From Solobacterium sp. (GTDB lineage: Bacteria > Bacillota_I > Bacilli_A > Erysipelotrichales > Erysipelotrichaceae): DNA of 14,920 nt. Where the stretch lies: positions 1 through 14,920 of the forward strand of contig JAFWJP010000150.1 in the NCBI GenBank assembly GCA_017514645.1. Direction: 5' to 3'. The first letter of the stretch is position 1, and the number at the start of each line of letters is the position of its first letter. Shown in pieces: positions 246 through 13,745 of the stretch. Under the pieces are notes generated by a model that ran no database searches, was not told the DNA's origin, and saw nothing but the letters and a program-made list of their open reading frames with translations. The position numbers were made by a program, and so were the translations under genes.

Positions 246-324
246 GGAGATTTATACCTTTTACGTGCAAGCAACCCACAGCCGGAGGATCAACCCTTCG
301 ATACCGCCAAGGGGGGTCAATCAT

Positions 325-3252
325 ATGAAAAAGCGCGTTGCAGCAACGCCCCGTAAATTCATACTTTGTGCAGGTCTGTCTTTGGCCATGGTGTTTTTCA
401 ATGCGGCCGGAGTCCATGCACTGGAGGAAACCGCAGAGGAGCCACAGACAGCACAGGTGACAGAACCCGTCAGCCAGGATGAAGTACCGACGGTTCCTGC
501 AGAAAACAACATTTCCGACGAGTCGGGGTCCGGCGCAGAAGATGTACCGGAGGAAATCCGGACGGTCTTTCCTGAAGAGCAGACGGAAACGATATCTGTA
601 CCGGAAGCTGCTGAGGAAGAACCTGCAGCGGCACCGGAAGAATTTCCGGATTCTGTGACGGAAGAAGAACCGGAGTCCGTTCCGGAAAACAATCCTGATA
701 CAGATTCTGCAGCAGATGCAGAAGAGCCGATAGCTGTCGCAGCTGCAGATCCGGATCTGCCGGGGCAGACAGTTGAAGACATTCCTGTACAGACCGCAGC
801 TGTATCTACATTTGCTGCACCTGCTGCAGCCGGACAGGAAACACCGCAGACCGACACAGAAAATACGGACAATACGATAGAAAACACCGGAACCGTAACC
901 ATCGATATCAATGGTACACAATTCCGTCCCGATGACGATGAATCCTCCCACTGGTCAAACGGCACCGGCTGGAAGAACGTCGCCGGGCAATATGTCGCAA
1001 TGGTTGATTACGACGGCGGTGGAACCATCTCCGCGGACGGCGGTGTTCTGACACTGGCTGTCGCCGGTGTCAACCGGATCGGCTCCTTGTCAGGTGACTG
1101 CTCCGTTCAGATCGTCGGCACCGGCATTGTGCTGATTGACCGTATTGACATCACTGAAGGTAATACAGTCACCCTGCATCCCAACACTGCCCTTTATGAT
1201 GAGGGAAGCGCAGCGATATTCCTGCTGCAGGATGATGGAAGCTATCTGCTCATCAACGGCAGCGCCACGACCGGCATCCTGGATGAAACCTACAATCTGG
1301 ACAATGTCCGTCTGCGTGTGCCGGAAGGCTCCTCCCTGACCCTCGGCGCTGCTGCAGTGCGCACGGAAAGCTGGGAAGAGAGCGGACAGCTGGAGGAAGA
1401 AGTCACAGTGTATACGGAATCCGTACCCTTCGATTACCTGGACCCTGCCCATGACGGAAAGGTCGAGGTCAAAGGTGCTTCCGCCAGTGTCATTCTCGGA
1501 AAGAACTGTACCATGACGGTAGACAGCGGGGCTTCCATTGTCCTGGAGAGCATCCAGATCGGTATCAGTACGGAATGCGCCGAGCTGATTGTACAGGGAA
1601 TCCTGGACATCAAAGGCATTGTCGAAGGCGGACTTGTAAACATTGGCAGCGGTGGATCTGTTACAGGTGATGGTACGCTTCAGTCCACCGAGGTCCTCTT
1701 GAATCCTCAGGGCAGCATTACTACAGATGTTCTGCTTGACAACAGCCGGCTCCGGATCAACGGTGACGGAATGACGGTTATACCGCCGCAGCTCAAGGAC
1801 AGCATTATCTATCTGGACGGGCAATCCATTACCATTCCGCGGCTGAACGCTTCCGGGACTTCCTACGTCGGAGTGAATACCCTGGATGAAGGCGGATACA
1901 ATTGCTCGATCGGTGACATCATTCTCGATTCCGGCAGTACACTCAACGTTGTCTGCAACAATCATGAATATGTACCGTACACCACCGGCGAGCTTCCCCG
2001 GTATGTGGAAGACTGCATCCTGACCATCAGCGGCACCATTGCAGGCGGAACCGTAAACGCCTATGCCGGCCTGGTGGAATACACCGGATCCCAGACAGAC
2101 AATCTGCCGCTCGCTCCCATTGATTCAGCAGCCAGAGTATACTTTACAGCTGTTGATACAGAGTCAACGGAAAGTCCGCTGAATATGTCCGCCGAAGACG
2201 CAGCCGCGCTGGCACAGACCGATACGATTCCCCTGATGAGGGCCGTTGTTGTGGATACGCTGGTCTCGAATGATTTCCTGTCCCGCAAATGGGTCGTTGA
2301 CTATGTCATATCCCTGGGTCCGATAGCGCGCAAAGCAAACCAGAGCTACACCTGTGCTTCTTTCCTGGAAGAATACGGAATCACAGGCACGACCATAATT
2401 CCGGGGAATGAGTCCGGTTGGGCAAGGTACTGCACAGCAGTGGAAATCATCGACCGCTATCTCAACCGCAGGCGCTGTTTCCTGGAGGACAAGACAACCT
2501 TTGATCTGGATGATGCAATCATGATCCGGGTGCTTGACTGCATAGGAAACGGAGGCCAGGGAGGATCCTCCTCCACGCATTCCGAAACGAACTTCACCGG
2601 CAACGGTGAACTCGGCGGAACCGGAGCAGGCTCATCACAGACCGGAAGCGGAACGGCCATCTTCGGCACAAATACCGTACCGGAAGAACCGGTGGATCCT
2701 GAACCGGATAAGCCTACAGATCCTGAACCGGATGAAAACAAACCCGGAACTGACACAACACACTCCGGCAGCACCGCTGCAGTCGTCCACACGGCACCTG
2801 CCGCCGCAAGCGATACTGCATGGAAAGAGCCTGCACAGACCGTCTATACCTACACCGGACCGGCTGCACCGGCGCCGGTATATGTACCTGAAACACCGGA
2901 AGCTGCTGCCTATACGGTTTCCTTTGAAACCTACGGCGGTACAATGATTCTGGCACAGACCGTAAACGCCGGAACAACCGCCGTAAAGCCGGACGATCCC
3001 GCCAAAGAAGGATTCCTGTTCGACGGCTGGTACAAGGACAAGGAACTGACGGAAACCTTCGATTTCCAGACACCGATCAATGCGGATACGACCGTATATG
3101 CTAAATGGACAGAACCGGCAGAAGCCGTTCCTGCTCCGGCAGAGCTTGTGGAAAAGAGCCTGTCCTGGCTGTGGATCCTGCTGGCATTGGTTCTCAGTGC
3201 ATTGGGCTTCGGTGGATGGAAGCTCTCCCGGAACAAGGACGAAGAAGACTAA
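325..3252 (+). CDS. Secreted, C-terminally membrane-anchored surface protein with Flg_new (Listeria-Bacteroides) repeat
   Basis: This 975-aa protein is exported and held on the membrane. The ATG at 325 is preferred over the in-frame GTG at 265 because it has an AAGGGGGG site (309-316) 8 nt upstream and begins a classic signal peptide: MKKR, a hydrophobic core, and a likely cut after VHA (residues 33-35). Then come a long Glu/Pro/Ala-rich acidic stretch (about 36-200), a beta-rich region with many short GxxT/V-type strands (about 205-640, perhaps a right-handed beta-helix or adhesin fold), a Gly/Ser segment, and a proline-rich PEPDKPTDPEPDE linker. One Flg_new/InlB B-type repeat follows (860-928, with DGWYKDKELT and VYAKW). 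A TM helix (about 945-965) and the tail KLSRNKDEED end the protein. No LPXTG motif is present. The ligand is unknown; adhesion or host contact is an inference from architecture. It is monocistronic, between its own promoter and a terminator. Confidence 0.85.
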   Translation: MKKRVAATPRKFILCAGLSLAMVFFNAAGVHALEETAEEPQTAQVTEPVSQDEVPTVPAENNISDESGSGAEDVPEEIRTVFPEEQTETISVPEAAEEEPAAAPEEFPDSVTEEEPESVPENNPDTDSAADAEEPIAVAAADPDLPGQTVEDIPVQTAAVSTFAAPAAAGQETPQTDTENTDNTIENTGTVTIDINGTQFRPDDDESSHWSNGTGWKNVAGQYVAMVDYDGGGTISADGGVLTLAVAGVNRIGSLSGDCSVQIVGTGIVLIDRIDITEGNTVTLHPNTALYDEGSAAIFLLQDDGSYLLINGSATTGILDETYNLDNVRLRVPEGSSLTLGAAAVRTESWEESGQLEEEVTVYTESVPFDYLDPAHDGKVEVKGASASVILGKNCTMTVDSGASIVLESIQIGISTECAELIVQGILDIKGIVEGGLVNIGSGGSVTGDGTLQSTEVLLNPQGSITTDVLLDNSRLRINGDGMTVIPPQLKDSIIYLDGQSITIPRLNASGTSYVGVNTLDEGGYNCSIGDIILDSGSTLNVVCNNHEYVPYTTGELPRYVEDCILTISGTIAGGTVNAYAGLVEYTGSQTDNLPLAPIDSAARVYFTAVDTESTESPLNMSAEDAAALAQTDTIPLMRAVVVDTLVSNDFLSRKWVVDYVISLGPIARKANQSYTCASFLEEYGITGTTIIPGNESGWARYCTAVEIIDRYLNRRRCFLEDKTTFDLDDAIMIRVLDCIGNGGQGGSSSTHSETNFTGNGELGGTGAGSSQTGSGTAIFGTNTVPEEPVDPEPDKPTDPEPDENKPGTDTTHSGSTAAVVHTAPAAASDTAWKEPAQTVYTYTGPAAPAPVYVPETPEAAAYTVSFETYGGTMILAQTVNAGTTAVKPDDPAKEGFLFDGWYKDKELTETFDFQTPINADTTVYAKWTEPAEAVPAPAELVEKSLSWLWILLALVLSALGFGGWKLSRNKDEED

Positions 3253-10010: not shown

Positions 10011-10504
10011 TGGATATCCGGAACATACCTGCTGAAGACATTCCGCAGGTACTCGATATTTACCGGGACAGTGTTAAGAAAGGCACCAGTACTTTTACGC
10101 GCTCTGTACCCACGGCGGAAGAATGGGACAAGGGACATCATCCGTTTGCCCGGACGGGCGTCTACGACGGAGACCTGCTCATCGGCTGGGCGGCACTCTC
10201 CCCTACATCCTCAAAGCCGCACTATTCCGGTGTTGCGGAAGTCAGCCTGTACATCCGGGATGGTTACCGGTATACCGGCATCGGTACGGAACTCATGAAA
10301 GCGGAGATGCAGGAAGCGGAACGGAACGGGATCTGGACGCTGTATGCCCATATCTTCTCCTCCAACACCGCCAGCATCCGCATGTGTGAGAAAGCCGGCT
10401 GGCGCCTGGTCGGTACAAGAGAGAAGATTGCCAGGGACAGCTTCGGTGTCTGGCAGGACACGACCATCATGGAATACCGCAGCAGAACCATCGGTATTGA
10501 CTGA
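10010..10504 (+). CDS. GNAT N-acetyltransferase, phosphinothricin acetyltransferase-like (Pat/MnaT group)
   Basis: This 164-aa acetyl-CoA-dependent N-acetyltransferase is of typical GNAT length. It shows IRNIPAEDIPQVLDIYRDSV at the N-terminus, FARTGVYDGDLLIGWAALSP (about 46-65), and the strand VAEVSLYIRDGYRYTGIGTELM with the acetyl-CoA loop RYTGIG (87-92). It ends with ASIRMCEKAGWRLVGTRE (121-138), the usual beta-bulge/C-terminal region. The closest named relatives by motif are Pat/Bar and the methionine-derivative acetyltransferase MnaT (YncA), so substrates could be amino acid analogues. The start overlaps the DUF1232 stop codon. A terminator follows. Confidence 0.87.
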   Translation: MDIRNIPAEDIPQVLDIYRDSVKKGTSTFTRSVPTAEEWDKGHHPFARTGVYDGDLLIGWAALSPTSSKPHYSGVAEVSLYIRDGYRYTGIGTELMKAEMQEAERNGIWTLYAHIFSSNTASIRMCEKAGWRLVGTREKIARDSFGVWQDTTIMEYRSRTIGID

Positions 10505-10522
10505 ATCACAGAAACTGAAAAC

Positions 10523-10546
10523 GCAGGACACTCATCCTGCATTTTT
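10523..10546 (+). terminator. Terminator of the DUF1232-GNAT operon
   Basis: GCAGGA (10523-10528) pairs with TCCTGC (10535-10540) over a 6-nt loop, followed by ATTTTT. It also separates the operon from the degenerate region to the right. Confidence 0.75.
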
Positions 10547-10559
10547 CTTTACCGTACGC

Positions 10560-10763
10560 TTATGTCCGCAGCGCAGTCAGCTGTCTGCGCAGTCCCATCA
10601 GCATCCCGAAGTTTCCCAGCGCGATCACGGCTGCACCGTACAGCACCGCATCGTTCCCGAGCGGCAGGCACATGATTCCCCCGCCGATCACCATGAACAC
10701 AAGTACGGACAGCAAGTGTTTCTTCCCGAACGATATTTCCGGGAAATAATAGACGCTGTCGGT
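10560..10763 (-). pseudogene. C-terminal remnant of a membrane protein
   Basis: On the minus strand a frame that is open only back to a TGA at 10799-10797 encodes, from about 10763 to the TAA at 10562-10560, a convincing membrane tail. [19 protein letters not shown] is followed by two hydrophobic helices separated by a short PLGND turn, then a positive tail GLRRQLTALRT. There is no plausible start codon with a ribosome binding site before the first helix; the first candidate is an internal TTG without one. The bases upstream of about 10763 belong to the tuf-derived array. This looks like the 3' end of a gene whose 5' part was lost or displaced. The parent family is not recognised. Confidence 0.6.
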
Positions 10764-10780
10764 TCTGTTGGACGACCTAC

Positions 10781-10802
10781 CGATTTCAGTGCCTCGTCAA
10801 AC
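10781..10802 (+). repeat. 22-bp direct repeat, left copy
   Basis: This matches 11189-11210 at 21 of 22 bases (T/C difference at the 17th base; core GATTTCAGTGCCTCG). The two copies sit at the two ends of the tuf-derived array, 408 bp apart. Confidence 0.8.
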
Positions 10803-10826
10803 TGATGATCATGGGCCGATCCACCC

Positions 10827-11188
10827 GGTTGAAATGGAAGGTTGTGCTCTGCTGTATGGGTACGGTTTCGAAGGTGATGACACACCGATCATCCGTGGGG
10901 CCGCCCTGAAGGCCCTGGTTGACGATCCTGAACTAATCGTTATGGTTGAAATGGAAGTCCGCGAACTGCTGTCCTAGTCTGGTTGAAATGGAAGTTCGTG
11001 AACTGCAGTCTGAGTGTGTTTTGAAGGTAATGCTGCACTGATCATCCGTAGTTCTACTCTGAAGGTTCTGGTTGACAGCCCTGAGCTGATCAGCCCGGGT
11101 GAAATGGAAGTCCGCGAACTGTTGTCCTAGCCTGGTTGAAATGGAAGTTCGTGAACTGCTGTCGGGTATGGCTTCGATGGAGATGATA
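10827..11188 (+). repeat. Tandem repeat of 154/153 bp with an internal 37-bp sub-repeat
   Basis: Units begin with GGTTGAAATGG at 10827, 10981 and 11134 (third unit partial). Each of the first two units ends in a second copy of its own beginning, at 10944 and 11097, exactly 37 bp before the next unit. The five copies are thus spaced 117, 37, 116 and 37 bp. 117 bp is 39 codons, the length of the repeated EF-Tu segment. Confidence 0.85.
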
Positions 11189-11210
11189 CGATTTCAGTGC
11201 CTCGCCAAAC
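11189..11210 (+). repeat. 22-bp direct repeat, right copy
   Basis: Partner of 10781-10802. It lies directly upstream of the promoter of the next gene, so the region where a -35 box would fall (about 11200-11206) is inside the repeat. Confidence 0.8.
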
Positions 11211-11223
11211 AGGTAAGATCACT

Positions 11224-11229
11224 TATAAT
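11224..11229 (+). promoter_or_regulatory. -10 box of the small unknown gene at 11256
   Basis: A perfect TATAAT lies 27 nt before the ATG. No recognisable -35 is at 16-18 bp upstream. An AGGAAGG site (11243-11249) follows. Confidence 0.45.
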
Positions 11230-11255
11230 ACTGTTGAGGAAGCAGGAAGGATACT

Positions 11256-11678
11256 ATGGAAAGACCGGTTATTGTAGGTTATGTAACAGAAGGTAAATAT
11301 GCAGGGTCTCAGATTATGATCTATGACCCGGAACTGCGCGCCTACCCTTCGGGCATGCTGGAACTTCGGGAGTACAGAGGACAGTTGCTGGTAAGTCTCA
11401 GTTCGATGAAGAAGAATATCGGAACACCGGCTGAGGATCAATTGTACCGGGTTCTGAAATACAACAGAGTTCTGTCGGTCACAGAGAACGTAGACGAAGC
11501 CAGTGCTGCGACGCGGACAACGGTAGGTGCGTTTGTAGCAGGACCGATCGGAATGCTGGCAGGCTTGACCGCCAAAAAGAAACTCACGTATATCATTGAG
11601 GTCACCTGGGGAGATTCCGCAACATCAGTGATCGAACTCAATGAAGAAGGCTACGAAATCTTCCTGGACTGCCAATAA
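11256..11678 (+). CDS. Hypothetical protein with glycine-rich hydrophobic segment
   Basis: This 140-aa protein is not assigned to a named family. It begins with short beta-prone stretches (VIVGYVTEGKYAGSQIMIYD). A putative glycine-zipper segment TTVGAFVAGPIGMLAGLTAKKK (about 88-109) follows, then TYIIEVTWGDSATSVIELNEEGYEIFLDC. The order of strands, a Gly/Pro-rich hydrophobic insert followed by basic residues, then a strand of the type IEVTWxD, is reminiscent of small PH-like bacterial proteins, but that is only an impression. The ATG has AGGAAGG 6 nt upstream. It is a single-gene unit between its -10 and a strong terminator, directly right of the tuf-derived array. Confidence 0.75.
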   Translation: MERPVIVGYVTEGKYAGSQIMIYDPELRAYPSGMLELREYRGQLLVSLSSMKKNIGTPAEDQLYRVLKYNRVLSVTENVDEASAATRTTVGAFVAGPIGMLAGLTAKKKLTYIIEVTWGDSATSVIELNEEGYEIFLDCQ

Positions 11679-11683
11679 TACAT

Positions 11684-11712
11684 AAACCCGGGATTATCAT
11701 TTCCCGGGTTTT
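11684..11712 (+). terminator. Strong terminator after the hypothetical gene
   Basis: AAACCCGGGA (11684-11693) pairs perfectly with TCCCGGGTTT (11702-11711) over an 8-nt loop, followed by T. The A-run on the left gives a short U-run on the minus strand, so it may also end the convergent AEC permease transcript. Confidence 0.85.
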
Positions 11713-11740
11713 ATACAGCACTGGTGTTGCTTTGGAATTA

Positions 11741-12679
11741 TTACACGAAGCCCAGACTGCTGAGCACGGTGATCCAGCAGAACATTGTAAAGATAACCCC
11801 GATCGTTGTTATCATGACACACTGTGCTGCCAGCTCATCATCAAGCCCCATCTGCATGGCCATGGAGAACGAAGCGATGGCAACAGGACCTCCGAAGAGC
11901 ACTAACAGCCCCGCCAGATCCACACCGCTGTATCCGAGCGCAATCGCTGCAGAAAGAGCGATCAGCGGTACAATGACCAGTCGTCCGGCTGTCGTGATAA
12001 ACAATAGTTTTGCGTTGCTGCGGACGGATACAAGCTGGAAGCTGCCGCCCAGCACCAGAAGCGACAACGGTGTCGTCATCCGTACCACTTGATTCAGAAT
12101 TCCGGTAAGGATCTCCGGTGTACGGATCCCGGAAAACTTGTATGCAAGACCGATTATTGCCGCAAGGATCAGCGGGTTCGTCAGAAGTCCCTTTACAGTC
12201 CTGCGCAGATCTCCCTTGATATCTGAATAGTGCTGGAGTATCAACACGGAAAGGATATTGAATGTCGGAACGACGAAAGCAATGAGAAGCGGCACCGATC
12301 CGGTATTTCCCGGACCGTAGATCGACTCGATGATCGGCAGACCGAGGATAACGAAGTTGGAGCGGAAGATTGCCTGAACGACAACACCTCTCTGCCGGTC
12401 GCTGATGGATACTCTGCTCATCAGCAGCATCGACACAACCGCAGCCGCCACAACAGCCGCAAACGCAAACAGAACAATACCCGGATCTGAAAGCATCGCC
12501 GGATCCATGCCCTGAATGTTATTGAACAACGTAACCGGCAGGCAGATGTGAAATACCACCCAGTTGAAGTCCTTGAAGGAAGCTTCCCGGATGATGTTTC
12601 TGTTCTTCAGCAACGCGCCCAGCAGCATCATGAAGGCTACGGAGAGCACTGCGTTGGCAGCGATTACTATACTATGCAT
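11741..12679 (-). CDS. AEC (auxin efflux carrier) family permease
   Basis: This 312-aa integral membrane transporter has about ten hydrophobic helices arranged as two halves of five. AEC features include FNWVVFHICLPVTLFNNI in the first half, the helix-breaking FRSNFVILGLPII about one third along, and LLTNPLILAAIIGL and TTPLSLLVLGGSF in the second half. GGPVAIASFSMAMQMG occurs near the end. Bacterial members export or import organic acids such as malate; the substrate here cannot be told. The start at 12679 is chosen over the ATG at 12706 because GGAGG lies 5 nt upstream and the 12706 ATG falls inside the promoter -10. It is monocistronic. Confidence 0.88.
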   Translation of the reverse strand: MHSIVIAANAVLSVAFMMLLGALLKNRNIIREASFKDFNWVVFHICLPVTLFNNIQGMDPAMLSDPGIVLFAFAAVVAAAVVSMLLMSRVSISDRQRGVVVQAIFRSNFVILGLPIIESIYGPGNTGSVPLLIAFVVPTFNILSVLILQHYSDIKGDLRRTVKGLLTNPLILAAIIGLAYKFSGIRTPEILTGILNQVVRMTTPLSLLVLGGSFQLVSVRSNAKLLFITTAGRLVIVPLIALSAAIALGYSGVDLAGLLVLFGGPVAIASFSMAMQMGLDDELAAQCVMITTIGVIFTMFCWITVLSSLGFV

Positions 12680-12705
12680 CTGAACCTCCCTGCATTGCTG
12701 TCTCA

Positions 12706-12735
12706 ATCATAGCGGGAAAAGGAAACCTCCGACAA
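12706..12735 (-). promoter_or_regulatory. Promoter of the AEC permease gene
   Basis: On the minus strand TTGTCG (12735-12730), an 18-bp spacer and TATGAT (12711-12706) form a plausible sigma-A promoter, with a start point near 12700 and a short leader of about 20 nt. Confidence 0.5.
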
Positions 12736-12786
12736 CCATTTAACCGCATTCTCTTCAGGAAATCCTACGCATCAGGTCCATAACAC

Positions 12787-12831
12787 AAAAAGACCCGCTG
12801 CCGCCGCAAATATGCTGAAACAGTGAGTCTT
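12787..12831 (-). terminator. Terminator of the bPH_1 gene
   Basis: Minus strand: AAGACTC (12831-12825) pairs with GGGTCTT (12796-12790), extended by ACTG/CAGC with one mismatch, with a large loop. It is followed by a U-rich tract (TTTTTGTG). It lies 35 bp past the stop at 12866. Confidence 0.6.
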
Positions 12832-12865
12832 CCTTCTATGGAATCCCGTGACTGACAATGGATTC

Positions 12866-13255
12866 CTACAATATGAACCTTGAAATGAGCGTACTGATCT
12901 GATGAATGTCCACGTTGGTCTTGAAATCGAACTGGAGCCGCGCTCCGTTGGCAAAAGTTAGGACCAGTTCGCTGTCAAGATCCAGAACGCCTGCTGTCTC
13001 AATACCGTAATACAGCACCTTCGCATACGGATACGAGAAATAGGAGATCTTCTTCCCGGTAAGTCCCTGTACATTGACAACGAAAATACGTCTGTCTGTA
13101 AAGATCACCTGATCGCGCATGGTCATGAAGGCCTGCATCATCTGCTCATCTTCCATCATGAGTTCCGGTACTTCCGGTCTCACCTGATTGAGATTGATGG
13201 CACGCAGGTTCAGGAGATTGGCGTCTCCGATAATTCCGCTTGATACTGCCGGCAT
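12866..13255 (-). CDS. Bacterial PH-domain protein (bPH_1, PF08000 type)
   Basis: This 129-aa cytoplasmic protein of the bPH_1 group has a PH-like beta-barrel closed by a C-terminal helix. The family pattern is clear: an N-terminal acidic segment, then RDQVIFTDRRIFVVNVQGLTGKKISYFSYPYAKV (47-80), which is the strand FTDRR, then V-x-x-QG(L/I)TGKK and a Tyr-rich strand. ETAGVLDLDSELVL (86-99) and the terminal helix VDIHQISTLISRFIL complete it. The length is that of the family. The role of these proteins is largely unknown; they form ring oligomers in structures. An AAGGAGG site is 9 nt upstream. It is monocistronic with its own terminator and divergent from the unknown gene at 13407. Confidence 0.87.
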   Translation of the reverse strand: MPAVSSGIIGDANLLNLRAINLNQVRPEVPELMMEDEQMMQAFMTMRDQVIFTDRRIFVVNVQGLTGKKISYFSYPYAKVLYYGIETAGVLDLDSELVLTFANGARLQFDFKTNVDIHQISTLISRFIL

Positions 13256-13358
13256 AATCTGTATCCTCCTTGATGTTTTACAGTTCTATCCTACTTATGG
13301 ATTGTGCAGAAAACCTGCCAGCAGACGAATTTCCGTATTCTGTTGATCCTACGCCGTA

Positions 13359-13364
13359 TATAAT
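13359..13364 (+). promoter_or_regulatory. Candidate -10 box upstream of the small ORF at 13407
   Basis: A TATAAT occurs 42 nt upstream of the ATG; no good -35 is seen. The rest of 13256-13406 shows no other gene. Confidence 0.35.
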
Positions 13365-13406
13365 ATCGTTGAATAAGGCAGTTCAAAGCCATCATCCCGA
13401 TCATAT

Positions 13407-13745
13407 ATGAACCATTACATTCTGCTCCATCAAACAGAACCCTGGATCCGACGTACGACCCTGCAGGCCTATCTCAATGACGGTTATTCCGTCTTCTTTG
13501 AAGATGCCCGTACCCTGCTTGTATACAAGCGCACAGATCCGGTTGATACCCAGACGGAAGCTACGCTGCTGCGGCTGATCATCCGCAGCTTCCGCCGTTC
13601 CATCCGGCACAGTGCGGTACTGGATCTCTCAGATCTCATGAACAAACATATCGCCCGTCTGACAGACAATCACTGCAGCAGTCTGAAATTCCACGATCCG
13701 TTCAACGATGAACTGAAGCAGCTCATCGTCCGTACACTCGTCTGA
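13407..13745 (+). CDS. Hypothetical protein, 112 aa
   Basis: The protein begins MNHYILLHQTEPWIRRTTLQ, has a moderately basic middle (RLIIRSFRRSIRHSA) and a helical C-terminus (NDELKQLIVRTLV). No family is recognised, and no TM helix or signal peptide is present. No Shine-Dalgarno is visible before the ATG. The call rests on the open frame, a TATAAT at 13359, and a terminator starting 3 bp after the stop. It could be poorly expressed. Confidence 0.55.
   Translation: MNHYILLHQTEPWIRRTTLQAYLNDGYSVFFEDARTLLVYKRTDPVDTQTEATLLRLIIRSFRRSIRHSAVLDLSDLMNKHIARLTDNHCSSLKFHDPFNDELKQLIVRTLV

Follow-up and report, generated by a model that had tools for sequence, protein, structure and literature searches.

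A decayed tandem array of tuf fragments between 22-bp direct repeats in a Solobacterium genome

The locus and the structure of the array

The window analysed here is the whole of one contig (C123), a stretch of 14,920 nucleotides from the draft genome of a Solobacterium sp., the assembly of which comprises 1.73 Mb in 307 contigs and is 69% complete, with 3% contamination. Towards its left end, at 265-3252, there is a large surface-protein-like open reading frame (ORF) that carries, close to its C-terminus, a Listeria-Bacteroides repeat domain (Flg_new). In two close relatives (G015 and G011), the genes that lie left of position 10505 and right of position 13407 are separated by approximately 40 bp. 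Thus, the array of tuf fragments described below sits within a 2.9-kb stretch (10506-13406) that is absent at this place in both relatives.

The 2.9-kb stretch contains a small reverse-strand ORF, the array, an ORF beginning at 11256, a transporter gene (Mem_trans) and a further ORF at 12866-13255. A counterpart of the transporter gene is found on other contigs in G015 and G011. No mobility gene was recognised among the scanned proteins. The ORF at 11256-11678 on the forward strand encodes 140 amino acids and has no Pfam or NCBIfam match. In a large protein collection its product has four relatives at 72-76% identity and one at 40%; none that close was present in the genomes searched, and two others of the 272 family genomes gave only weak matches. 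An empty site was also sought through this gene and the upstream reverse-strand ORF, both of which occur only in the host among the 70 genomes of the genus.

A preliminary description of the window had placed a head-to-tail array of EF-Tu (tuf) gene fragments at 10771-11210. Comparison of 10641-11300 with the host’s own tuf gene by BLASTN bears this out, with five significant matches (E-values from 5.6e-30 to 2.4e-9; 79-84% identity), all of them to nucleotides 428-560 of tuf. The interval itself requires correction: the tuf-derived part is 10803-11188 (386 bp), nearly all of which consists of these five pieces, whereas the outer segments, 10781-10802 and 11189-11210, form a 22-bp direct repeat with no more similarity to tuf than shuffled sequence has.

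All five copies lie on the forward strand. Copy A (10803-10931; tuf nucleotides 432-560; 79.8% identity; E-value 5.6e-30) begins with a DDPELIDL-like sequence, continues through VEMEV to ALKAL and runs on into the next DDPE. Copy B (10916-10971; tuf 428-483; 83.9%) overlaps copy A at the A/B joint. It is followed by copy B′ (10979-11071; tuf 454-547; 78.7%, with a one-base gap), copy C (11069-11124; tuf 428-483; 78.6%) and copy D (11131-11189; tuf 453-512; 83.3%), which terminates at GDDT, where the right flanking repeat starts. The VEMEV words are spaced at 117, 37, 116 and 37 bp, in agreement with the periods of 117 and 37 bp proposed earlier. The 37-bp units occupy 10944-10980 and 11097-11133 on the forward strand, and the joint bases at the two 37-bp steps, seven (10972-10978) and six (11125-11130), fall outside the BLASTN matches. 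At a larger scale, the array contains two 146-bp blocks, offset by 153 bp, that are 81% identical. The disabling changes reported from the first reading are also present: a TAG stands in the EF-Tu frame at the joint that ends each 37-bp unit, and there is a one-base slip in the second array unit. The repeated segment had been placed between the G4 and G5 motifs of the GTPase domain. It does begin right after NKCDM; it extends through SALKAL, however, and so includes the SAL word that we take to be G5.

The flanking repeat, X (CGATTTCAGTGCCTCGTCAAAC), abuts the tuf-derived part exactly on both sides, as tuf similarity sets in at 10803/10804 and stops at 11189. The left copy (10781-10802) and the right copy (11189-11210), both on the forward strand, are identical at 21 of 22 positions, while shuffling both 100-bp flanks 200 times, base by base, gave no 22-bp match better than 16 of 22. 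At up to three mismatches, X occurs in the host assembly, 69% of a complete genome, at these two places only. The idea that X is a further decayed piece of tuf, plausible by eye, was rejected, as its similarity to the tuf unit is at the level of shuffled sequence; the same is true of the sequence beyond X. X therefore looks like a target-site duplication bracketing an insert of 386 bp, and probably is one, although 22 bp is long for a duplication of this type. Between its two copies 1 of 22 bases differs, compared with 19% between the 146-base blocks; X may thus postdate the array, on numbers too small for a decision.

The parent gene and the origin of the periods

The host tuf gene lies on contig C121 (7278-8462) and is the sole place above the EF-Tu cut-off in the host assembly, at its 69% completeness. 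When the array was searched against the genus, this gene scored highest among all the matched tuf places (116 bits, with 104 for the next), which supports the earlier proposal that a piece of tuf was captured and amplified at this locus. A copy-by-copy comparison was made with nine tuf segments, these being the nine of 20 loci caught by a motif. The host gene is the best match for copy A (77 against 69) and copy B′ (52 against 50), and is slightly behind others for copies B (39 against 41), C (32 against 34) and D (38 against 42). The overall pattern fits capture from an ancestor of the host lineage, and a close sister lineage may have been the source.

A reason for the main period can be found in the parent gene. 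Host tuf carries a 10-bp direct repeat, CGATCCTGAG, at nucleotides 435 and 552. The two copies are exactly 117 bp apart, lie at the edges of the unit, and form one of five direct repeats of at least 10 bp in this gene with copies within 600 bp. The A/B joint falls in this same block, since 10916-10931 belongs to two matches, as the end of copy A (tuf up to 560) and as the start of copy B (tuf from 428). The 117-bp joint reads CTGGTTGACGATCC, which places the exchange at a TGG left of the perfect 10-bp repeat. The block around the exchange is imperfect, with 14 of 17 positions identical in a count by eye; annealing over this wider, imperfect block is therefore the better description of the event.

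For the shorter period, copy A contains GGTT at 10827 and 10864, 37 bp apart. Today’s host tuf has GGTT at neither of the corresponding positions, so that the words have to be attributed to an older or a sister sequence; TGGTT is found at both places in four of the 17 tuf genes compared. With the CGATCCTGAG pair of tuf at 117 bp and the GGTT words of copy A at 37 bp, both periods fit slippage between short repeats. The length of the 39-codon unit is explained by the parent gene’s own direct repeats. Since the TAG is common to both 37-bp units, the simplest order of events would be a 117-bp step, then a 37-bp step, and then duplication of the combined 153-bp unit.

Searches for related arrays

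Matches to the array were obtained in 54 of the 70 genomes of the genus, the host included, and the remaining 16 gave no match at an E-value of 0.001; in many genomes only nine first-look candidates were scored. In the other 53 matching genomes every listed place is inside an ordinary tuf gene (19 and 37 loci fetched). A pattern for the junction, allowing up to three mismatches, was found in one of 244 family genomes, the host, where it occurs twice.

Exact patterns were written for the 37-bp and the approximately 117-bp arrangements, both of which match the window itself. The 37-bp pattern had no matches in viral contigs or in genome contigs. The approximately 117-bp pattern had none in viral contigs, as was also the case for the further patterns searched there, and nine in genome contigs. 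Two of these nine are in draft tuf genes with N bases. In Kangiella aquimarina (L032, approximately 711-2015), the same EF-Tu segment is duplicated in tandem and in frame over 39 codons, with 110 of 117 bases identical, and the gene has three N bases. In Rhodanobacter sp. Root480 (L033, approximately 445-2065), the locus contains N bases and is split into several pieces that overlap one another, the appearance expected of duplicate tuf genes that have been collapsed. Both cases are read as probable misassemblies, since tuf is fragmented in these genomes; the Kangiella duplication, probably a misassembly of two tuf genes, could be real. For the other seven matches, tblastn gave no similarity to tuf at its cut-off. 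A Lachnospiraceae contig (RUG14853; L031, 3242-3359) holds a short tandem repeat with a AGATCCACATGCAGATGGGAAGTCCGCGAAGAG-like unit, in which no tuf similarity was found.

Plasmid and phage records were searched as well. All seven plasmid matches are annotated as EF-Tu. Among the five phage matches, two are annotated as EF-Tu, two are in records without annotation, and one is Moraxella phage Mcat7, the record of which carries, at one of its ends, a complete tuf frame next to a frame taken for fusA. Among the papers listed in literature searches no title deals with arrays of tuf fragments, and “tuf pseudogene” does not occur in the listed papers of one search, which is no proof of absence from print.

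Decay, possible roles and origin

The five copies, when pooled, differ from host tuf at 15, 20 and 40 of 131 sites at codon positions 1, 2 and 3, respectively, the A/B and B′/C overlaps being counted twice. For six other tuf genes, the corresponding differences over a 128-nt segment are 1, 0, 12; 1, 0, 12; 0, 1, 13; 1, 0, 12; 5, 2, 17; and 2, 2, 21. Positions 1 and 2 together have thus changed by 13% in the array, compared with approximately 1% in the four nearest tuf genes and approximately 8% and 5% in the two distant ones. The array is evidently not maintained as an EF-Tu coding sequence. Silent changes in the parent gene itself since the capture would be expected to give the excess at position 3. 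The blocks spaced at 153 bp differ by 19%, only about 1.4 times the 13%, which fits a duplication some time after capture rather than the formation of all copies at once.

The array is real in the assembly. It is nonetheless a fragmented assembly, as outlined above, and the draft tuf genes of Kangiella and Rhodanobacter, with internal duplications of 39 and approximately 37 codons and N bases, make tuf seem error-prone. It could be argued from this that conserved tuf sequences of a mixed sample were stitched into the contig. This is improbable, as the longest exact matches, 17 nt between array and host tuf and 28 nt within the array, would permit stitching only if k were small, and the stops and replacements of the array are absent from the 17 tuf genes compared. 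Moreover, a 47-amino acid ORF of the array is represented in a protein collection by two sequences on two contigs. One of these is apparently the present window; the other contig is perhaps from the same sample. The same open frame might be thought a small gene for an EF-Tu-like peptide (ending in RELLS) that mimics EF-Tu, for which its occurrence on two contigs could speak. Such a gene is the least credible of the readings: visual inspection shows no clear ribosome-binding site, there are replacements such as VRELLS to GCALLY, and among the short proteins (approximately 31-100 amino acids) of a collection of 5.8 billion the sole other match is weaker (66%) and is, by its sequence, a partial ordinary EF-Tu. 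A regulatory or non-coding role, in which the repeat acts upstream of the 11256 gene through spacing or protein binding, or as RNA, has more to recommend it and is still unlikely. The array stands directly upstream of that open gene and of a promoter-like site (TCGCCA-16-TATAAT; 11202-11229, forward strand; 10 of 12 positions), the -35-like hexamer of which is overlapped by the right copy of X, and a second, weaker site (9 of 12) lies within the array at 10919-10946. The former is the best of six such sites in 10400-13500, where 3.3 are expected. As this better site is downstream of the array, the array would be outside that transcript. Its copies have drifted to approximately 80% identity, with frame slips, and it was not found elsewhere in the genus. 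No Rfam family was reached at the gathering cut-off, and relaxing the E-value to 1 gave one weak match (E 0.76), outside the array. The RNA fold is unremarkable on either strand, with z-scores of 0.68 and -0.36; of 100 shuffled sequences, 77 and 36 had a fold that was equally good or better.

It has to be considered whether the units were multiplied before they reached the locus. Head-to-tail units in one register and a flanking duplication resembling that of an integrated fragment would be produced if a 117-nt circle of tuf, as single-stranded DNA or RNA, were copied by rolling circle and the preformed concatemer captured at a staggered break. This is judged unlikely. Between units made in one event, a divergence of about twice their 13% change from tuf at positions 1 and 2 would be expected, in place of the ratio noted above; the 37-bp steps require further slippage regardless; and the scan of 15 protein queries revealed no recognisable reverse transcriptase or recombinase. 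A more specific version, in which a circle of approximately 117 nt of tuf RNA or single-stranded DNA arose from the abundant message and its rolling-circle concatemer was integrated with a 22-bp target duplication, is speculative and very doubtful; if true, such a processed capture would be a bacterial counterpart of retrocopied repeats.

The preferred explanation, to which we assign a probability of roughly 0.7, is a captured tuf fragment that was expanded at short repeats, inserted at a staggered break and left to decay without selection. A tuf fragment of the host lineage (approximately codons 143-187) would have been inserted between two genes at such a break, with duplication of 22 bp. 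Either before or after the insertion, slippage or annealing between short direct repeats would have expanded it, at the CGATCCTGAG pair of tuf (117 bp), then out of frame at the GGTT pair (37 bp), and finally by duplication of the combined 153-bp unit. Since then the array would have decayed free of selection. The simplest reading of the codon-position changes, the absence of an unusual fold and the lack of related arrays among the genomes searched is that the array is a relic without a role; it looks like the product of a repair or copying accident and not a working element.

Several known systems offer points of comparison. As in bacterial pseudogene fragments, a piece of a gene lies outside that gene, with clear similarity to a functional parent in the same genome, its codon constraint relaxed and its frame broken by stops and slips; unlike them, the array is tandemly duplicated inside and is flanked exactly by 22-bp repeats. 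It shares with repeats made by slipped-strand mispairing or short-repeat recombination a period, 117 bp, that matches the distance between the copies of a short direct repeat in the parent; the same 37-bp correspondence is seen only in copy A and the four tuf genes mentioned. It differs from them in that its parent is a coding segment of tuf and that two periods (117 and 37 bp) are nested. As a short insert between direct repeats, with the form of a target-site duplication for which the mechanism can be proposed, it resembles MITE-like non-autonomous elements. In contrast to these, terminal inverted repeats were not seen by eye in the 30-nt ends, and a program search for inverted repeats of at least 12 nt returned one palindrome, inside the array; no further copy was found in the host genome or the related genomes searched, and the flanking repeat is of unusual length. 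It is not a CRISPR-like array either, lacking regular, near-identical repeats and unique spacers of near-constant length. The array belongs to a known kind, that of partial gene duplications that have become pseudogenes, and is a well-explained instance of it.

Its value is that of a readable fossil, from which it can be seen how a core gene may lose a fragment to capture, and how such a fragment may be duplicated at short repeats and persist as noncoding DNA. The direct repeats of the parent gene itself can explain what was suspected to be a new repeat element. If the 22-bp duplication reflects a specific route of integration, the array would be valuable as a bacterial record of such a route.
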